Source of the DNA: Candidatus Helarchaeota archaeon
GTDB taxonomy: Archaea > Asgardarchaeota > Lokiarchaeia > Helarchaeales > RDOG01
Length of the DNA: 64,000 bases
Reading direction: 5' to 3'
Assembly (NCBI GenBank): GCA_019058315.1
Contig: JAHPZH010000004.1
Coordinates: 248,001-312,000 of the forward strand
Below, piece by piece: positions 42,852-56,105 of this stretch. Numbering within the stretch: position 1 is the first letter of the stretch; each line of letters opens with the position of its first letter. The position numbers and the translations under genes are program-made. The notes under the pieces are model-generated. The model did no database searches. It worked only from the letters and a program-made list of their open reading frames with translations, and was not told the origin of the DNA.

Positions 42852-44981
42852 TTAGAATTTCAAAAATAGATATTCAACAAGTAGCAATAATTTCATAATT
42901 TGTCGGTATTTAACAACAGTCCTTCTACTACATTTATGTTTCTTCACTAAAGCACTAGCTTTAACATTCTTATTATTCTTTATTATGTCATGACAATCCT
43001 TCATTAATTCCAAAACATTTGACTTTTTTCCCATTCTTCCGTTTAAAGTGTTAAACTTTATTTTGAAATCATCCTTCAAAATCTTGTGCAAATAGCCATA
43101 ACTTACATCATGTTTTTCAGCAAACTTAACCCAATGTTTTTTCTCATTTGGAATTTCCTTCAATTTATGCTGTTTATTTACTTTTGTATTTAACTTTATT
43201 TCTATATCGTTAAAAAGTTCTTTTCTTTGTTCCTTTGATAACCTTTTCGACTTAGAATAATTTAGACCTCTAAATTTCTTTTTAGGAAAATAATTCTTTC
43301 GAATTGTTGAAATGTATGCTTCTGAAGTTTCAAATTGCTCTGCAAATTCTTTTTGATTTAGTTCTAAGCCATTATCTAAAATCCTTTGTAGTTCTTTGAT
43401 TATTTCCTCATTTTTATTATCCTCAGTAAATTGATTATGATATCTCTTTTTGATATAATTGTTGTAATGGTTTATATAATCGAAATTATGCTCATTTAGA
43501 AAATAATGTGTTATTGCCTTAGTTCTCCTATCCTTGAATAAAACTTTGGTTTGCCATTTCCAAGAAGCATAAATCTGTTTTGTATTTTGTAACTTATCAT
43601 AACTCTTTCGCATAGTCCTACTAACCTCTTTGTAAGTTGTATGCCCCATTAAAGCTATTGCCTCATCTGGATTCAAATGATGTTTGTGAAAATCTGAACC
43701 AATAACATACCTAATGTCATGATAATTCACCCATTTCTTTGATTGTTTAATTAATTCCTTTGGTTTAAAATTGAAATATCTCAAAAATTCATCTAATTCC
43801 TCAGATATTGCGTAATCTGTTAAGTAATATTTCTTTGAAACCTCCCGTAAATACACGTTTAAACTGTTTTCATACATTGCTTGTTCTAACTTAAATGGAG
43901 AAAATATTACATGCCTTATCTGAATCTTTGGGTTTAATTTTCCATTGATATACCTAATTCTATTTCTTGTTTTCATGGTAACAAAGCCCAATAATTTCAA
44001 TAACAAGATTAATTTGTATTCAAAGCCCTGAGGTTTAAATTCCTGAAACCTAGCCCTCGATTTACATTGAATGTTGCCATTTTTCAAAGAATCAATGTAA
44101 TATCTAATTTCCTTAAGAATGTTTCTTATAACCGGATGAATGTAAGAAAATTTCAATCCTCTTGGTTTTTTCTTATAAGAGATTACCCAATCATCTTTTT
44201 TCAAAAACCATAATTCTTTCTCATCAAATCTTAATTCGTTTATCAATTGTTCCTTAGTGTAAATATTCTCCCATTTTAACCGGCAAATTTCAATCCTTCT
44301 ACTACAAAAAGCCAAATTCATCATGAATGAAGCTAAATGTAACAAAGTTTTCAAATGAATCCCGCGTACAGTTTTTTGATCCTTGCTTTTCTTTAGTTCA
44401 ATTTCCGATTTATGAGCTAAATAGTCATCAAAGATACAATTTAGAGTTTTCATCAATAAATTTAGATTGTGATATTCTCTTTGTTTTCCAGATTCATCAA
44501 TGTCATAAGGTAATTCAAAACCCTTCATTACAAATTTCTGTAAATCCTCACTTTCAAAGAAACCTAATAGCAAAGAATAAGCCCTTGTTAAATAAGTTCT
44601 AATGGTTGTAATGTTCAATAGCCCTACTTTATTTTTAGCCATTAACCAATTATAATATTGATTAATTACTTGTTTATCAATTTCATGAACATAGTTTAAA
44701 CCTAAGTGTTTTTTTGCAAAAGTACAAATCCCATTTTTATGGTAAATTTGTTTTAATGCTTTTAATGAACTTGGTTTTCGTTTATTTTTGTAAATTCTCT
44801 TATATTCTGTTAATGCTTCATCTAATCGGATTTGTCTATAATCAGTTTTAAATCCCATTTCTTGAAAAGATTCTTTGAATGTATCTTTGAGAAAATCTTT
44901 GAATAACATAGCTTTCTCATCTTTGGATAAATCTTGTAAAACATCAGCAGTTTTTTTCTTTGGAATAATTGCATTAGCCAT
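42852..44981 (-). CDS. Large tyrosine recombinase with C-terminal helix-turn-helix repeats
   Basis: 709 residues. An N-terminal SAM-like arm-binding domain (about 50-160) precedes the catalytic domain with all key residues visible: Arg in CSRRIEICRLKW (about 228), HDIR (421-424), GHTT His447 and the nucleophile in KSYDK (Tyr461). Beyond it about 240 extra residues hold at least three helix-turn-helix-like units (NQKEFAEQFETSEAYISTI, WVKFAEKHDVSYGYLHKIL, ASALVKKHKCSRRTVVKY), unusual for an integrase. It should integrate or excise the element; attachment sites are not identified. It follows a 67-residue gene by 1 base. Confidence 0.82.
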   Translation of the reverse strand: MANAIIPKKKTADVLQDLSKDEKAMLFKDFLKDTFKESFQEMGFKTDYRQIRLDEALTEYKRIYKNKRKPSSLKALKQIYHKNGICTFAKKHLGLNYVHEIDKQVINQYYNWLMAKNKVGLLNITTIRTYLTRAYSLLLGFFESEDLQKFVMKGFELPYDIDESGKQREYHNLNLLMKTLNCIFDDYLAHKSEIELKKSKDQKTVRGIHLKTLLHLASFMMNLAFCSRRIEICRLKWENIYTKEQLINELRFDEKELWFLKKDDWVISYKKKPRGLKFSYIHPVIRNILKEIRYYIDSLKNGNIQCKSRARFQEFKPQGFEYKLILLLKLLGFVTMKTRNRIRYINGKLNPKIQIRHVIFSPFKLEQAMYENSLNVYLREVSKKYYLTDYAISEELDEFLRYFNFKPKELIKQSKKWVNYHDIRYVIGSDFHKHHLNPDEAIALMGHTTYKEVSRTMRKSYDKLQNTKQIYASWKWQTKVLFKDRRTKAITHYFLNEHNFDYINHYNNYIKKRYHNQFTEDNKNEEIIKELQRILDNGLELNQKEFAEQFETSEAYISTIRKNYFPKKKFRGLNYSKSKRLSKEQRKELFNDIEIKLNTKVNKQHKLKEIPNEKKHWVKFAEKHDVSYGYLHKILKDDFKIKFNTLNGRMGKKSNVLELMKDCHDIIKNNKNVKASALVKKHKCSRRTVVKYRQIMKLLLLVEYLFLKF

Positions 44982-47849: not shown

Positions 47850-49187
47850 TTGTCGAAACGATTATCATTGGAAGTAAAATCGATTAATGATTTGAAAATT
47901 CTTGATAAATACCCTCAATACTGGAAGGATATTACATCATTTTTAGTAATTAGCTCAAAAACCCTATCAATAAAAGATAAACAAGGTCTAATAAAAAGAT
48001 TAAAACAAATTAACATACCAATTCATGTTGAATCTTATTCTTGGTGGTTCACACATCCAAGAACTAAACAGAAATTATCAGATCCCGATAATAACCCAAA
48101 TTTTGAAAAAAACCCAAATTTATTATTTGCTATTCAAAATATCTCTGAAGATTTAATCTTAGAAGGATGGGAATCAACAATTCTCCATGATAAAAATTTT
48201 GATTGTATTGATAATTGGATAGGATATCAACGAAACTTGAATAAAAATTTTAGAAAAAAACAACAATCCCTAAATAAAATAAAATCTTTACGCTCAAGAT
48301 TAGTTAAAAAAGATGATGCGTGTGCTGAACTTGAGTCATTTTCCCTTCCATATATTCCAATTATCGATATTTCAGGTCATAAAGAAGAAGTAACAAATGC
48401 TATAAATGCAAATATTGAAATTATTAAATATTTCAATAATAAAAATACTCAAACATTTAAGAAGCAAGTGTGCCCATCAATAGTAATTAATTTTAAAGCA
48501 ATTGAATGTAAAAGTCTAGAAAAATTGGTAAATTTGATTAAAGATAATTTTGAAATGTGCTGGATTTGGTTCGTTGATATAGACGATAGAAAACTTCCAG
48601 AAATTGATATAAGAAAATTATGGAAATATATCAGATATCTAAATAGAGGGAGTAAAAAAATCTTTAGACTAAGATTGGGAGGATTTTTATCCCATAGATT
48701 CTTAAAAAATGAATTTCCATCAATTTGTTCTTTCATAGATGGTTGGGGTGCTTATAATTTTACACCAAATTATTATCAAGATGAAGAAGATATAACTTAT
48801 TATGGAAGAAAGAGACATGTTTTCTCCCCACAATTAGGAAGATTTGTTTCAGGCAATACTTTAAGTAAAGAGTTAGAGCAGAAAAAATGTAATTTCAAAT
48901 GTGATTGTTTTGCTTGTAAAAAACTAATTGCGGAATCAAAATTAACAATTCCAGAGATGGAGTATAAAAGAAATGAAGCTAGAAAAGAAGAGAAAAGATT
49001 GAACATAGAGTCAGTTGGTGTATCCCAAAATAAGCAATCAGAATTTTTAAGACTTCATGGTATGATATGTTTTTATAATTTATTAAAAATTAGTGATAAA
49101 GAATTCAGTAATCTTGAAAAAAAGTGGGTCAATCCAGGATTAAAAAAATGGAAAATCATAGAAAAAGAAATGAGTAGAGGTGATTAG
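47850..49187 (+). CDS. TGT/DpdA-superfamily-like base-exchange protein (divergent)
   Basis: 445 residues. The C-terminal half follows tRNA-guanine transglycosylase order: FRLRLGGF (about 272-279), SFIDGWGAYNF (294-304, the place of the catalytic-Asp strand), GRKRHVFSPQLGRFVSG, and the zinc site CDCFAC (Cys 351, 353, 356) with His403 in RLHGMICFYNLL. TGT proteins swap guanine for 7-deazaguanine in tRNA; DpdA relatives do so in DNA. The Cys3-His spacing is longer than in TGT, and the aspartate pair cannot be assigned surely. The start is TTG. It overlaps the next gene by 8 bases, forming a three-gene operon with a PIN-like nuclease. Confidence 0.55.
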   Translation: MSKRLSLEVKSINDLKILDKYPQYWKDITSFLVISSKTLSIKDKQGLIKRLKQINIPIHVESYSWWFTHPRTKQKLSDPDNNPNFEKNPNLLFAIQNISEDLILEGWESTILHDKNFDCIDNWIGYQRNLNKNFRKKQQSLNKIKSLRSRLVKKDDACAELESFSLPYIPIIDISGHKEEVTNAINANIEIIKYFNNKNTQTFKKQVCPSIVINFKAIECKSLEKLVNLIKDNFEMCWIWFVDIDDRKLPEIDIRKLWKYIRYLNRGSKKIFRLRLGGFLSHRFLKNEFPSICSFIDGWGAYNFTPNYYQDEEDITYYGRKRHVFSPQLGRFVSGNTLSKELEQKKCNFKCDCFACKKLIAESKLTIPEMEYKRNEARKEEKRLNIESVGVSQNKQSEFLRLHGMICFYNLLKISDKEFSNLEKKWVNPGLKKWKIIEKEMSRGD

Positions 49188-50223
49188 AATTAATCAATTA
49201 ATAGAAGAAAGTGAAGAAGATTTTAACGAAGATAATTATGATTTATTATTGATATTATTAAATAGTCTTTATCCAAAAACTATTCTAAAGACTCGTTTAA
49301 TGAAATTAAGTTGGTTTTTTTTTGAACTTGGAAATCTACCAAAGATATTAAATTTAGAAAATTACTCAATGGACTTTGAACCTCATTTACTTGGTGGAAG
49401 CGATTATGCTATTGATAATAATCTATCTATTATGGAAAATGATGGATTAATAGAAACAACACAGAGAGTATCAAACCAAGCAAATGATTATGAAGTAATT
49501 TCAATTAGAAAAGATAAACATGATGAAATTTCAGAAAATATAAAACAATATTGGATTGATAAAGAAGCAGATAAATTTATTAATTTAAATGATTTTAAAA
49601 ATTCCCTTGATATTTTTAATTCATTATTTAAAGATGATAATAGCCTGATTGGATTTTTATATAGATTAGATCCTGAAAGAACCAAGAACTCAATTATTAT
49701 TTCAAAAGTAAAGAAAATCATGACACCTGAAAAATTTAAGGATTGCATTTACAATATATTTCAAAATTTACGACCAATTTTTTCATTAACTTTGTTTTAT
49801 TCAAGAAAACAAGCGAATTCAGTAGTAAGAATTTTAAATAACGAAGAAAAAATCATTGAAATTAATACAGAATGGTTATATAATTTATCTGAAGCTTTGG
49901 TAAACCATTATTTAAAGAATGAAAATGAAATAATGAATAGAATAATAAGTAAACTAGCTGGTCAGATATCATTAAAATGTCGAACAGGAGGGTACGAACA
50001 ACTTGAGAAATATTTTGTTATTATTGAAGGATTATGGAGGTATAATTTATCGTCAGATATCCCAGTTGAATTCTTAAGACAAATAACCGTTAATCTTTTG
50101 TTTAATATTGAAAATAAACAATTATTAGAAACAGAGATTATAAATTTACAACAATTATTCAAAAAGCATGATCTTGAAATTACACCAAAAATTGACCTCT
50201 TTAAAACTTATTTACAGGTTTAG
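49180..50223 (+). CDS. Protein with YwgA/Panacea-like N-terminal domain
   Basis: 347 residues, starting at GTG inside the preceding gene. Residues about 22-95 (LLNSLYPKTILKTRLMKLSWFFFELG, then YSMDFEPHLLGGSDYAIDNNLSIMENDGLIE) match the pattern of YwgA and SocA/Panacea domains: KTRLxKL, an aromatic run, then a glycine turn and a winged-helix-like end. The remaining 250 residues are helical with no assignment. Panacea domains neutralise toxins in toxin-antitoxin systems, so this may control the PIN-like protein encoded 3 bases downstream. Confidence 0.5.
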   Translation: MIRINQLIEESEEDFNEDNYDLLLILLNSLYPKTILKTRLMKLSWFFFELGNLPKILNLENYSMDFEPHLLGGSDYAIDNNLSIMENDGLIETTQRVSNQANDYEVISIRKDKHDEISENIKQYWIDKEADKFINLNDFKNSLDIFNSLFKDDNSLIGFLYRLDPERTKNSIIISKVKKIMTPEKFKDCIYNIFQNLRPIFSLTLFYSRKQANSVVRILNNEEKIIEINTEWLYNLSEALVNHYLKNENEIMNRIISKLAGQISLKCRTGGYEQLEKYFVIIEGLWRYNLSSDIPVEFLRQITVNLLFNIENKQLLETEIINLQQLFKKHDLEITPKIDLFKTYLQV

Positions 50224-50226
50224 AAT

Positions 50227-51102
50227 TTGGATGAACGCACAAAAAGTATAAATTCATTAATTATTGACTCAGACGCCATTATCAATCTTTTTTTTGGGAC
50301 AGAAAACGCACGAAAAGACATAAAAACCATCATTAAAGATAGTGAGAATGTTTTCATCACCACTTACACAATAGGTGAGTTAAAAAGAGTCATCTTAAGT
50401 ACTTTAATAAATATTCATTATACAATCCAAAATTGGATCATTAAGGAGAAATGGGAAGATTTTAATAAAAAATTATTAATCCAGAGAAGTAGAGATATTT
50501 TTCTAAAACTATATGGAGGAAGCGAACGGAAAACTTTACGATTAAAAGAATTTTATATGTCGATATTTCTCGATTTCTTATCAGATACTTTTGATTTACC
50601 AATAAGAGATTCTAGAACTGTATTTTTAAAAAGATTAGAGAACTATATCGAGAATTTTGATGTTCTATTTATTAATGATGATTTTGAAAAAAGGAATAGT
50701 TCAATGAATTGTAATTGGCTAAATTATAAAATTCAAATAGAAAATAAGGAATTAAAATTTTATAAAAAGGGCTTTGGATGTTTAAAATTAAAATGTAATA
50801 CATTAAATGAGATATTGAAGTATTTTACATCAAATAAGGAAAGATTGCTAAAGGTTTATAAAATAAAAAATTTTAAACCAATTCCGAATTGGTATCCTAA
50901 TTTCAAAATGTTATTTAATTTATTTTTAAACAAGATGTTGGATAAAAGCTATAAAAGATTATCTTATAAATGTAAATCGTTAGGAGACTTAATTCTAATT
51001 ATCGACACTAATGAAAATGAAACTATCCTTACTTCAAATAATCGAGATTTTCAAGCTACAACTCATATTCTTGGAATCAATTTAATAATTTTTAAAAGAT
51101 GA
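50227..51102 (+). CDS. PIN-like nuclease
   Basis: 291 residues from TTG 50227 (no ATG is in frame nearby). PIN acidic residues are visible: IIDSDAIINLF (Asp 14 and 16), YTIGELKRV (Glu about 54), and near the C-terminus DLILIIDTN then ILTSNNRDFQ, the usual TxNxxDF ending. A long insert (about 75-240) separates the halves. PIN domains cut RNA, often tRNA, as toxins or in RNA decay. Last gene of the TGT-like operon, 3 bases after the Panacea-like gene. Confidence 0.6.
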   Translation: MDERTKSINSLIIDSDAIINLFFGTENARKDIKTIIKDSENVFITTYTIGELKRVILSTLINIHYTIQNWIIKEKWEDFNKKLLIQRSRDIFLKLYGGSERKTLRLKEFYMSIFLDFLSDTFDLPIRDSRTVFLKRLENYIENFDVLFINDDFEKRNSSMNCNWLNYKIQIENKELKFYKKGFGCLKLKCNTLNEILKYFTSNKERLLKVYKIKNFKPIPNWYPNFKMLFNLFLNKMLDKSYKRLSYKCKSLGDLILIIDTNENETILTSNNRDFQATTHILGINLIIFKR

Positions 51103-52252: not shown

Positions 52253-53383
52253 ATGAATAAAACAGCACTTTTTAAAATTCTAGATAATTTAAAAACTAAA
52301 TTAGATAGCTTCTCCAAGAAGTATGATGAGACGCTTAAGAAAAACTATGAAAACTTAAGTAAACTCAGCGATATTCTTTGGGAGATCCACGAAGCTTCTA
52401 GCTATTCTTGGATTGGACATCAATCTGAAGCATACCACCTAATTGGTAATGAATTTACGATCCCTCCCCCTAGTGAGGGATTTGATATAATGTCTGGACA
52501 TCCAAGATCAGTAAATTGGAAAAGAATACCATATATTGGTATTCAACAATGGATTGAGAATAAAACAGGGTTAAATATCTCAACTATTAGAAAACAAATA
52601 ATCGAAATAATGAATGAAACCCAACAAATACAAGAAGAAATTATTACCGATTTATCTATTTTGAAAGAGTTAAACCAATATAAAACTGAAATAGCGACTT
52701 TAGACGAAATAAATAATATGAAATGGGGTGTTCCAGAATCTTATCTTGTTAAGCAAAAAAGACCAAGTAATTTTTTTACAAGAGATATGCAAGCACTTAA
52801 TCTAGGGATGAGAACTCCTCCACATATAGAATACCTAGTCAATGTGGAATCAAGTCAAACAAAAATTTATTCAATTCGAAATTTTATAAAATTAGCAAAT
52901 AGATTAATAACACAGATTAAAATTAGAGAGGATTTAGAAATCAAGGTTCAACCTACGGATTTAGAAACTTATTATAATCTTATCGAGGAGACTAAAGAAA
53001 ATTTCAGAGCCACAATCATAAAAGAACCAATTAATGAATCTGATGTTCAAGATTATTATGAAAGCTTTTTGAAATCCAATAAATTTGATTTTAACCGCGA
53101 AAAAGATCAAGTCCTTTTTTCTGAGAAATTATTTGTTCCCGACTTCACAAGTGATGAATTTAAAATGGCAATCGAAGTTAAGTTCGTAAAAGATAACAAA
53201 ACTAAATCTGTTGTTATTGAAGGAATGAGTGCAGACTTGAAACCTTACTCTAAAAAGTGGGACAAAATCCTATACATTGTATATGATAAGGGTGGTAATA
53301 TTAACGATGGTAGGAAATTTACAAAAGATTTTAACGAAGAAACAGACGAATTAAGGACAGTATGTTTAGTAATTAAACATTAA
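52253..53383 (+). CDS. PD-(D/E)XK nuclease-domain protein
   Basis: 376 residues. Residues 1-45 and 115-150 are coiled-coil-like; the middle (about 75-100) contains a conserved-looking PPPSEGFDIMSGHPRSVNW. The C-terminal nuclease core has YYESFLKSNKFDF, then VPDFTSDEF and AIEVKFVKDN (Asp 297, Glu 308, Lys 310), then WDKILYIVYD, a complete PD-(D/E)XK order. It resembles restriction or defence nucleases of unknown specificity. A small membrane protein gene follows after 16 bases. Divergent from the 51.7k gene, sharing the palindrome array. Confidence 0.68.
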   Translation: MNKTALFKILDNLKTKLDSFSKKYDETLKKNYENLSKLSDILWEIHEASSYSWIGHQSEAYHLIGNEFTIPPPSEGFDIMSGHPRSVNWKRIPYIGIQQWIENKTGLNISTIRKQIIEIMNETQQIQEEIITDLSILKELNQYKTEIATLDEINNMKWGVPESYLVKQKRPSNFFTRDMQALNLGMRTPPHIEYLVNVESSQTKIYSIRNFIKLANRLITQIKIREDLEIKVQPTDLETYYNLIEETKENFRATIIKEPINESDVQDYYESFLKSNKFDFNREKDQVLFSEKLFVPDFTSDEFKMAIEVKFVKDNKTKSVVIEGMSADLKPYSKKWDKILYIVYDKGGNINDGRKFTKDFNEETDELRTVCLVIKH

Positions 53384-54269: not shown

Positions 54270-56105
54270 TTATTTAAACATTAACTGAAAATATTCACTT
54301 GTTTCATTTCCAAAAATGTCTACGACGGTTAAAACTACTGTATAACTTCCTGCATTCTCATATTTATGCCTTATTTTAGTTTTCGCTGTTTTTATTATTT
54401 TTCTTCCCGAACCAATTTGTCTAAATGAATAATCACTTGCTCTAAATAATTTTTCTTCGTTATAGTCCCAATCTATTGCCCAGAAATCTATTAAATCTAA
54501 TGATTCTTCATCTTTTAAATCCAGACCATAAAGAGTTGTATGATAATTCGAATGAAATCTTATAAATTCGATATCAATTGTTAGATTAATTGGATTGATA
54601 GACTGTCGAAATTCTAAGAATGGTAATTCAGAAAAATGATGTTCATTTTCTTCCTCATCATTAATTAAAGATTGAGGAATAATTCTCAGTTCTACTTCTA
54701 TTTTTTGATCTTCTTGGAATAATTTTTTAAAGAAACCAACTTCCATAAAATATTCCCAACCCAAAATTATCAATTTATTTTTATTTAAACTCTTGACTTC
54801 TTCAATTGCATTTTGAATTTCTTTTGGAGAAATTATTGTATCAATACCACCGATATGGATATATGCATCGTTTATTTCGCCATGTAAGTGATCGTAACCA
54901 TCCAAATAAGAACCTTTAAATTGTTTCAAGATATACTCATAATATTTTTTATGGGTTTCGCCAATGTATTCTTCTGATTTTAGTTTCAAAAAGAGAAGAT
55001 GCTTGTTATACATCTCTAAATTTAATAATTGAAATGGGAAACTCGTAGATTTCGAATTTAAGAGAATTCGTTTTCTAATTTCATTTATAGAATATCTACT
55101 AATATCAACTGCTATCCATTTTCGCCCTAATTCTTGACCTGTTGCAACAGTTGTTCCTGACCCGCAAAAAAAATCTGCAATGATGTCATTTTTATTAGAA
55201 CATTGACGAATGATTCTATCAAGTAAAGAAATAGAATTTTCTGTGGGGTAAAGAGTCTTTTTTGTTTTTTCATATCCTGGTATATCAATCCAAATATTAT
55301 CATCATCAGCTTCATATTCAATAGGATCTGCAGTTTTTCGTTTCTTTTTTTCAAATTTTTCAAAAAATTTTGCGTTATTGCTCTTTCGATATAAAAATAA
55401 ACTGTCAACTTGAATAATTAAATGTTTTTGTCGTTCTAATGCTTTATCTGATACTGGTTTATAAATTCTTCTTACAAGATATTCACAAATAAAGTTATTC
55501 TCACCAAAAATTTCATCTAAAATTACTTTAATATAATGCCCATAATGATAATCAAATCTTACAGCCATAAAACCAATATCTTTTAATAATTTATAGATGA
55601 GAAAAGCTCTTTCATAAAACCATTGACATAAATTTTGGATATGATTTGAACCAGTCCATATATTTTTGTATGCAATATCCTTTATTGGACTTGGAAATTG
55701 TTTAATCGTTTTTTTAGTGCCTAATCCAATAGGAATATCAATATATTCATTAGCTCCAGTATAAAAAGGAGGATCAATATATACGAATTGAATTTTATTG
55801 CGGAATTTTCCCTCTAAACTCTTTAATACATATAAATTATCTCCCCAAATGAGTAAATTTTTCCAATTTTTTAAATAATCTTCTTCTTTTTCTTCTTTTT
55901 TTTTCTCATCAGACTCGAAATACTGCATTAAAGTTCTTGGAACTATTTTTTTTATCTTCTTTTTCTTTGATCTCTTCTGTTTTTGTTTTTGCAATAGTGA
56001 ATCATCATCATTTTTAGAGAGATATGTTTCTAAAAATTGTAAGTTTAATTTTGGAATTTCTCGAATATTTTTTTTCCATTTTAATTTTAAAGGGAATTCA
56101 TTCAT
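54270..56105 (-). CDS. Type III DNA adenine methyltransferase Mod, active-looking subunit
   Basis: 611 residues. Beta-class amino-methyltransferase with DPPF (111-114, motif IV) before DFFCGSGTT (311-319, motif I), the order of type III Mod. It methylates adenine with SAM in the recognition site. The N-terminus is lysine-rich (KQKRSKKKKIKK). The C-terminal about 45 residues (HKYENAGSYTVVLTVVDIFGNETSEYF) look like a PKD-type beta sandwich, which is unexpected in a DNA methyltransferase. The start overlaps the res stop by 8 bases; third gene of the restriction operon. Confidence 0.85.
   Translation of the reverse strand: MNEFPLKLKWKKNIREIPKLNLQFLETYLSKNDDDSLLQKQKQKRSKKKKIKKIVPRTLMQYFESDEKKKEEKEEDYLKNWKNLLIWGDNLYVLKSLEGKFRNKIQFVYIDPPFYTGANEYIDIPIGLGTKKTIKQFPSPIKDIAYKNIWTGSNHIQNLCQWFYERAFLIYKLLKDIGFMAVRFDYHYGHYIKVILDEIFGENNFICEYLVRRIYKPVSDKALERQKHLIIQVDSLFLYRKSNNAKFFEKFEKKKRKTADPIEYEADDDNIWIDIPGYEKTKKTLYPTENSISLLDRIIRQCSNKNDIIADFFCGSGTTVATGQELGRKWIAVDISRYSINEIRKRILLNSKSTSFPFQLLNLEMYNKHLLFLKLKSEEYIGETHKKYYEYILKQFKGSYLDGYDHLHGEINDAYIHIGGIDTIISPKEIQNAIEEVKSLNKNKLIILGWEYFMEVGFFKKLFQEDQKIEVELRIIPQSLINDEEENEHHFSELPFLEFRQSINPINLTIDIEFIRFHSNYHTTLYGLDLKDEESLDLIDFWAIDWDYNEEKLFRASDYSFRQIGSGRKIIKTAKTKIRHKYENAGSYTVVLTVVDIFGNETSEYFQLMFK

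Follow-up and report, generated by a model that had tools for sequence, protein, structure and literature searches.

What could be the function of a TGT-like protein encoded in one operon with a Panacea-like protein and a PIN-like nuclease? This question is raised by a locus of a Candidatus Helarchaeota archaeon, situated in a stretch of 64,000 nucleotides (contig JAHPZH010000004.1, positions 248,001 to 312,000) that was analyzed as a whole and is called the window here. The archaeal host genome (G000) measures 5.79 Mb, with a stated completeness of 94% and contamination of 6.6%. We compared the locus with 228 Asgard genomes, mostly MAGs, and, outside Asgard archaea, with plasmid, phage, and viral collections. 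We found that a Panacea-domain protein, the TGT-like protein (gene 1), and one or two metal-dependent nucleases form a tightly packed, patchily distributed set. This cassette looks like an undescribed defense or toxin system and not like ordinary housekeeping genes.

Three closely packed genes beside restriction genes

A preliminary description, made from the letters of the window, had reported three overlapping or nearly touching reading frames amid restriction genes. Both observations were reproduced. The three genes lie on the + strand at the same coordinates, with an 8-base overlap between gene 1 and gene 2 and a 3-base gap between gene 2 and gene 3, and two restriction genes are located downstream of the trio. 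The spacing suggests that the trio is co-transcribed. Gene starts were assigned mechanically. The genes are as follows.

47850..49187, + strand: gene 1, 445-aa TGT-like protein (ORF list; TTG start; homologues and profile comparison)
49180..50223, + strand: gene 2, protein of 347 aa with a Panacea-like domain at its N-terminus and a C-terminal extension (ORF list; GTG start; hhalign; alignment)
50227..51102, + strand: gene 3, PIN-fold nuclease of 291 aa carrying an insertion that contains Cys (ORF list; TTG start; conserved residues, weak PF01850)
52253..53383, + strand: DpnII-MboI-like restriction nuclease, outside the conserved cassette (PF18742 E 1.8e-12)
54270..56105, − strand: type III-like DNA methyltransferase, outside the conserved cassette (PF01555 E 5.2e-33; PADLOC MTase_III E 6.5e-67)

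The methyltransferase has a weak C-terminal match to a PKD domain (PF18911 E 5e-4), which is an unusual pairing. On the other side of the trio, a 709-aa protein (42852-44981, − strand) resembles a tyrosine recombinase by eye, with no support from Pfam; the resemblance suggests a mobile element close to the cassette.

The trio recurs in Asgard archaea

The preliminary description had made its reading depend on the co-occurrence of the three genes in other archaeal genomes. Among the 228 Asgard genomes, the trio was found with its gene order kept at seven other loci from six further species (G003, G021, G036, G156, G053 twice, and G035), so the co-occurrence holds. Protein identity across these seven loci is only about 14-30% and the flanking genes differ, which argues that the arrangement is not due to chance. 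The relatives of the window genes come from Lokiarchaeota-type Asgard MAGs, and two of the homologous loci belong to Candidatus Prometheoarchaeum sp. CSMAG_2396 and Candidatus Lokiarchaeota archaeon Loki_b32.

The loci were reached by different searches. A single-sequence search of 60 genomes with gene 1 returned one relative (31% identity), in G003, where relatives of gene 2 and gene 3 follow in the same order between unrelated flanks. A two-member gene 1 profile identified G021, again with gene 2 and gene 3 relatives following. The PIN frame of this locus is interrupted at a run of 13 A (L012 10240-10300), which represents either an assembly error, a decayed copy, or a contingency tract. The loci of G036 and G156 and the two of G053 were recovered with a PIN profile, and those of G035, G046, and G121 with a seven-member gene 1 profile. 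In G046, the ninth Asgard locus, a nuclease gene and gene 1 are followed by the contig end. G121, the tenth, carries four genes in a shuffled order (Panacea, PIN, PDDEXK, gene 1), all overlapping.

In total, ten loci were identified in 9 of the 228 genomes. The seven-member profile found gene 1 matches in only 11 of the 228, and 9 of those carry the cassette. Matches of gene 1 profiles in G152, G214, and G106 were weak. Several families are represented while most species have no cassette, a pattern expected for a mobile defense gene.

A further match, in G055, was rejected as a cassette gene 1 because it is an ordinary TGT/DpdA-like protein within a BREX-like locus of an Asgard archaeon. One stretch of this genome (G055:C5, L056 1701-10180) encodes PglZ (PF08665), BrxL (PF13337), the TGT/DpdA-like protein (PF01702 E 1.3e-17), DUF6884, and DNA methyltransferases.

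A small PDDEXK nuclease is a fourth part of the cassette

A gene for a PDDEXK nuclease of about 140 aa immediately precedes gene 1, in many cases with an overlap, in G021, G036, G156, both loci of G053, G035, and G046, and it has the same place in G121. The window and G003 are the only Asgard cassette loci without it. The residues E, D, ExK, and Q are invariant or nearly so in ten homologues, and the Pfam matches, although weak, are to PDDEXK nucleases in all but one case. This nuclease is a part of the cassette that the preliminary description had missed.

A copy lying near the window trio was ruled out: no homologue is adjacent, and a relative found elsewhere in the genome (G000:C3, L100 6221-9065) overlaps the gene of a 765-aa N6-type DNA methyltransferase. 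The two are a candidate restriction-modification pair, and sharing an operon with such an enzyme fits a restriction-type nuclease.

Plasmid-borne versions outside Asgard archaea

We searched plasmids by tblastn with the Panacea protein of G121 as the query. A Panacea-PDDEXK-gene 1 set lacking PIN was found on three plasmids from Haloarcula sinaiiensis, Haloarcula sp. JP-L23, and Haloarcula marismortui. Plasmid pSI-1 of Arthrobacter sp. AK-1 carries the same three genes, also with no PIN, together with a 200-aa protein that has hydrophobic, transmembrane-like stretches. The PDDEXK and gene 1 relatives on the plasmids are annotated as hypothetical proteins adjoining the Panacea gene. The Haloarcula gene 1 relatives include WP_004966467, and one of the Haloarcula cassettes lies on pHsi540. 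Queries of phages, plasmids, and viral contigs with the sequences of the Asgard gene 1 proteins gave no match. Comparison by hhalign of the Lokiarchaeal-type branch of gene 1 with the G121/Haloarcula/Arthrobacter branch gave a probability of 92.3% (E 5.5e-7), versus <1% for unrelated controls, confirming at the level of sequence profiles that the Asgard and plasmid sets are homologous. Outside Asgard archaea, Panacea, gene 1, and PDDEXK are more constant than PIN.

Genes of defense type also neighbor cassette loci, including SIR2 and N-6 methylase genes. In Haloarcula sinaiiensis, a SIR2-family protein (L089 6305-7792) is encoded about 100 bases 3' of the cassette and could be an alternative effector.

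Gene 2 is Panacea-related and gene 3 keeps a PIN active site

The Panacea-like N-terminus that had been proposed for gene 2 was borne out by profile comparison, which placed it as follows.

49276..49731, + strand: Panacea-like region of gene 2, residues 33-184 (hhalign)

The window protein alone had no match in Pfam. Against the Panacea proteins encoded at the sister loci, it gave a probability of 96.7% (E 3.4e-10, 135 columns), versus <1% for unrelated controls. The Panacea protein of G121 is unambiguous (PF13274 8e-8, 33.6 bits versus a cut-off of 25.7). The N-terminus of gene 2 is, on these profile matches, Panacea-related. Panacea neutralizes many toxins (PMC8832971), nucleases among them (PMC10440598).

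The acidic PIN residues previously read in gene 3 were confirmed by alignment: D14, E51, D254, and N271, together with C162, C185, and C249, are invariant across the first seven homologues aligned. Gene 3 keeps the PIN active site (D, E, D, D/N). In the homologue from G121, the most divergent one, E51 was not retained on alignment; this protein is itself an unambiguous PIN protein (PIN_3 1.7e-12). Matches to PF01850 were weak in four of seven homologues (best E 0.0016), the window protein scoring 15.8 bits, below the cut-off of 23.6, and the PDB returned a weak match to VapC. G062 also has a PIN relative of gene 3 that stands alone and shares its Cys pattern (G062:C221, L028 3781-4515); the neighbors are an HTH-like gene, genes resembling HerA/NurA, and a pair reading like csm4/csm5 of type III CRISPR.

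Gene 1 is probably TGT-derived

Gene 1 homologues were found in 9 Asgard genomes, on 3 Haloarcula plasmids, and on 1 Arthrobacter plasmid. The residues discussed below are as follows.

48900..48917, + strand: CxCxxC motif (CDCFAC, residues 351-356), TGT-type zinc site (alignment)
49056-49058, + strand: His403, candidate fourth zinc ligand (alignment)
48738..48740, + strand: Asp297, possibly equivalent to the TGT nucleophile or else to the Asp three positions ahead of it (alignment, profile alignment)
48030..48032, + strand: Glu61 in VESYSW, candidate counterpart of the Asp in TGT DSGGFQ (alignment; Asp in 6 other homologues)

The zinc motif is present in 12 of 13 full-length homologues, the sole exception being the Arthrobacter protein, which has no Cys cluster; HN or KH mostly follows the motif, as in TGTs. 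We compared gene 1 by hhalign with archaeal TGTs, bacterial-type TGTs, and TGT/DpdA-like proteins of the same organisms. The best probabilities were 64-80%, versus at most 6% for unrelated controls, and this moderate signal is centered on the zinc motif. Pfam was silent: neither PF01702 nor PF23859 matched seven gene 1 members at E<=10, nor the window or G121 proteins. The DpdA HMM gave no match across 31 Asgard genomes, including G000, G003, and G021, and no positive control matched it either. Phage DpdA proteins, which are without CxCxxC, gave no profile match with gene 1. The PDB gave no useful match, and two AlphaFold models built from few input sequences had a mean pLDDT of 36 and 47, with strands and helices alternating at residues 190-290 of the L030 homologue. 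Since the zinc motif and the profile signal are set against silent TGT and DpdA models in Pfam, unmatched phage DpdA, and uninformative structures, we grade gene 1 only as probably TGT-derived. The identification in the preliminary description of a TGT/DpdA-like protein with a CxCxxC-His site, to be checked by profiles, therefore stands for the zinc motif and for a probable kinship with the TGT superfamily but not for a Pfam TGT or DpdA assignment or a family-wide nucleophile.

Weighing alternative explanations

Gene 1 could instead be unrelated to TGTs, either a different TIM-barrel protein or a novel one whose zinc knuckle arose by convergence, the cassette still being a Panacea/nuclease toxin system. 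Such a protein would explain why the TGT signal lies mostly around CxCxxC, and a Foldseek search with the second low-confidence model returned mostly TIM barrels and no TGT among its top 50, at insignificant E-values (>= 0.019). Column shuffles that preserved the CxCxxC block scored about 33-41 versus 47 for the real profile, yet none of 50 reached the real score, which indicates that the motif is a part but not all of the signal. The best alignment also stays collinear for 108 columns, beginning in a late strand, crossing the zinc site, and ending at YHN, and we regard a non-TGT origin as unlikely. If gene 1 is a TGT, it could be catalytically active and label self tRNA or DNA with a 7-deazaguanine, the nucleases cleaving targets that are unmarked or under attack, essentially the mechanism proposed in the preliminary description. 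The zinc site is TGT-like. Of the 8 full-length Lokiarchaeal-type members, 7 retain Asp297, and 7 of the 13 homologues are acidic at the position of DSGG (Glu61 in the window). The host encodes ordinary TGTs and has a strong QueC match (E 8.5e-84), so the preQ0 supply that the preliminary description suggested looking for is probably available; the precursor does not discriminate between the readings. Against activity, Asp297 is absent from the G121/Haloarcula/Arthrobacter branch. In the best profile alignment it falls three residues before the nucleophile, which is Asp280 in Z. mobilis TGT (PMC3660597), and the nucleophile column holds the non-acidic P, S, G, or A. Reading the proteins for guanine-pocket motifs of the DSGGFQ, FDEC, and VQGG type revealed only a DSDSW/ESYSW-like trace in G003 and the window, and none in the others. 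No DpdB/DpdC-like or other base-modification partner was seen by eye among the ORFs of any operon. Marking of self by a modified base is thus unsupported, given also the missing Pfam match, the Arthrobacter member without even the Cys cluster, and the low-confidence models, and we consider it distinctly improbable. We lean toward a non-modifying recognition role, as may be judged from these residues, while Asp297 and Glu61, both present in the window protein, leave activity possible there. A precedent exists in the eukaryotic TGT, in which a catalytic subunit is paired with a partner that keeps the zinc but has no catalytic residues (PMC3660597). The host genome also encodes a third TGT-family protein (G000:C5, L003 955-1929; 324 aa, PF01702 E 9.4e-8) with HSGNWW in place of DSGGFQ, which resembles the ESYSWW of gene 1.

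The cassette could also be an ordinary Panacea:PIN toxin-antitoxin pair, as both proteins are classical parts of such systems (PMC10440598). Gene 1 and the PDDEXK nuclease would then be unrelated neighbors. To our knowledge, neither is known from toxin-antitoxin modules. Gene 1, however, stays beside its partners in overlapping or nearly touching frames at 14-30% identity, and outside Asgard archaea it is PIN that is missing. A simple pair is therefore very unlikely.

Comparison with known systems

The Dpd systems (DpdA-K), which restrict DNA by 7-deazaguanine modification, likewise encode a TGT-like protein beside nuclease genes. Their DNA-modification partners are DpdB, which is ParB-like, and DpdC (DUF328). 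Gene 1 differs in matching neither PF23859 nor PF01702, and its partners are Panacea, PIN, and small PDDEXK proteins. Panacea (SocA/PanA) toxin-antitoxin systems share with the cassette a Panacea gene directly beside a nuclease gene, overlapping frames, and mobile spread (PMC8832971, PMC10440598), but have two genes instead of three or four; the Asgard Panacea protein has an extended C-terminus and a constant TGT-like partner. VapBC and other PIN toxin systems have a PIN active site and an antitoxin-like neighbor in common with the cassette, whereas the Asgard PIN is about 290 aa with a Cys-containing insertion and the antitoxin is Panacea-like. The nearest published recruitment of a TGT homologue into a defense operon is in the HerA/FtsK BREX-related capture systems (PMC12839542). 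The cassette lacks their PglZ, BrxC, HerA, and GNAT components, and Panacea is unmentioned for those systems (PMC12839542).

Among the cassette proteins, PADLOC strongly matched the Panacea component alone, the proteins of the G121 and Haloarcula loci matching component A of the candidate PDC-M19 (PDC-M19A, E 3e-14 and 6e-12). Its components had no match in gene 1, PDDEXK, or the PIN protein of the window. We found no description of a Panacea/TGT/PIN combination in the openly licensed literature, in agreement with what had been noted beforehand. That the cassette, as a Panacea-containing conflict module, represents a class of its own is doubtful.

Proposed mechanism and significance

We tentatively propose, at somewhat less than even confidence, that the window operon is the Asgard version of a toxin-type, mobile anti-invader cassette in which Panacea restrains, gene 1 recognizes nucleic acid, and PIN, PDDEXK, or both cut. 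By analogy with known Panacea systems (PMC8832971, PMC10440598), the Panacea protein would hold the effectors in check by direct contact. Gene 1, a predicted barrel protein with its structural zinc site kept and no consistent catalytic center, would recognize tRNA or some feature of foreign DNA. Target engagement or a disturbed complex would free the nucleases; PIN would then cut RNA and PDDEXK, where present, DNA, and the infection would be stopped. The effector is not constant, because PIN is missing from the loci outside Asgard archaea and PDDEXK from the window and G003. A broader reading, a class of defense systems built on a repurposed TGT fold, where gene 1 would recognize a base feature of tRNA or DNA or exchange a base and so license destruction of the infected cell's RNA and DNA by a Panacea-gated PIN/PDDEXK pair, seems to us questionable.

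If the proposal is correct, a multi-gene conflict module would be common to Asgard archaea, haloarchaea, and an actinobacterial plasmid, a Panacea protein would be at work in a three- or four-part system, and a transglycosylase fold would have been recruited for recognition. The Haloarcula versions make the cassette testable in haloarchaea, and the cassette gives context to protein families annotated as hypothetical in the records examined.
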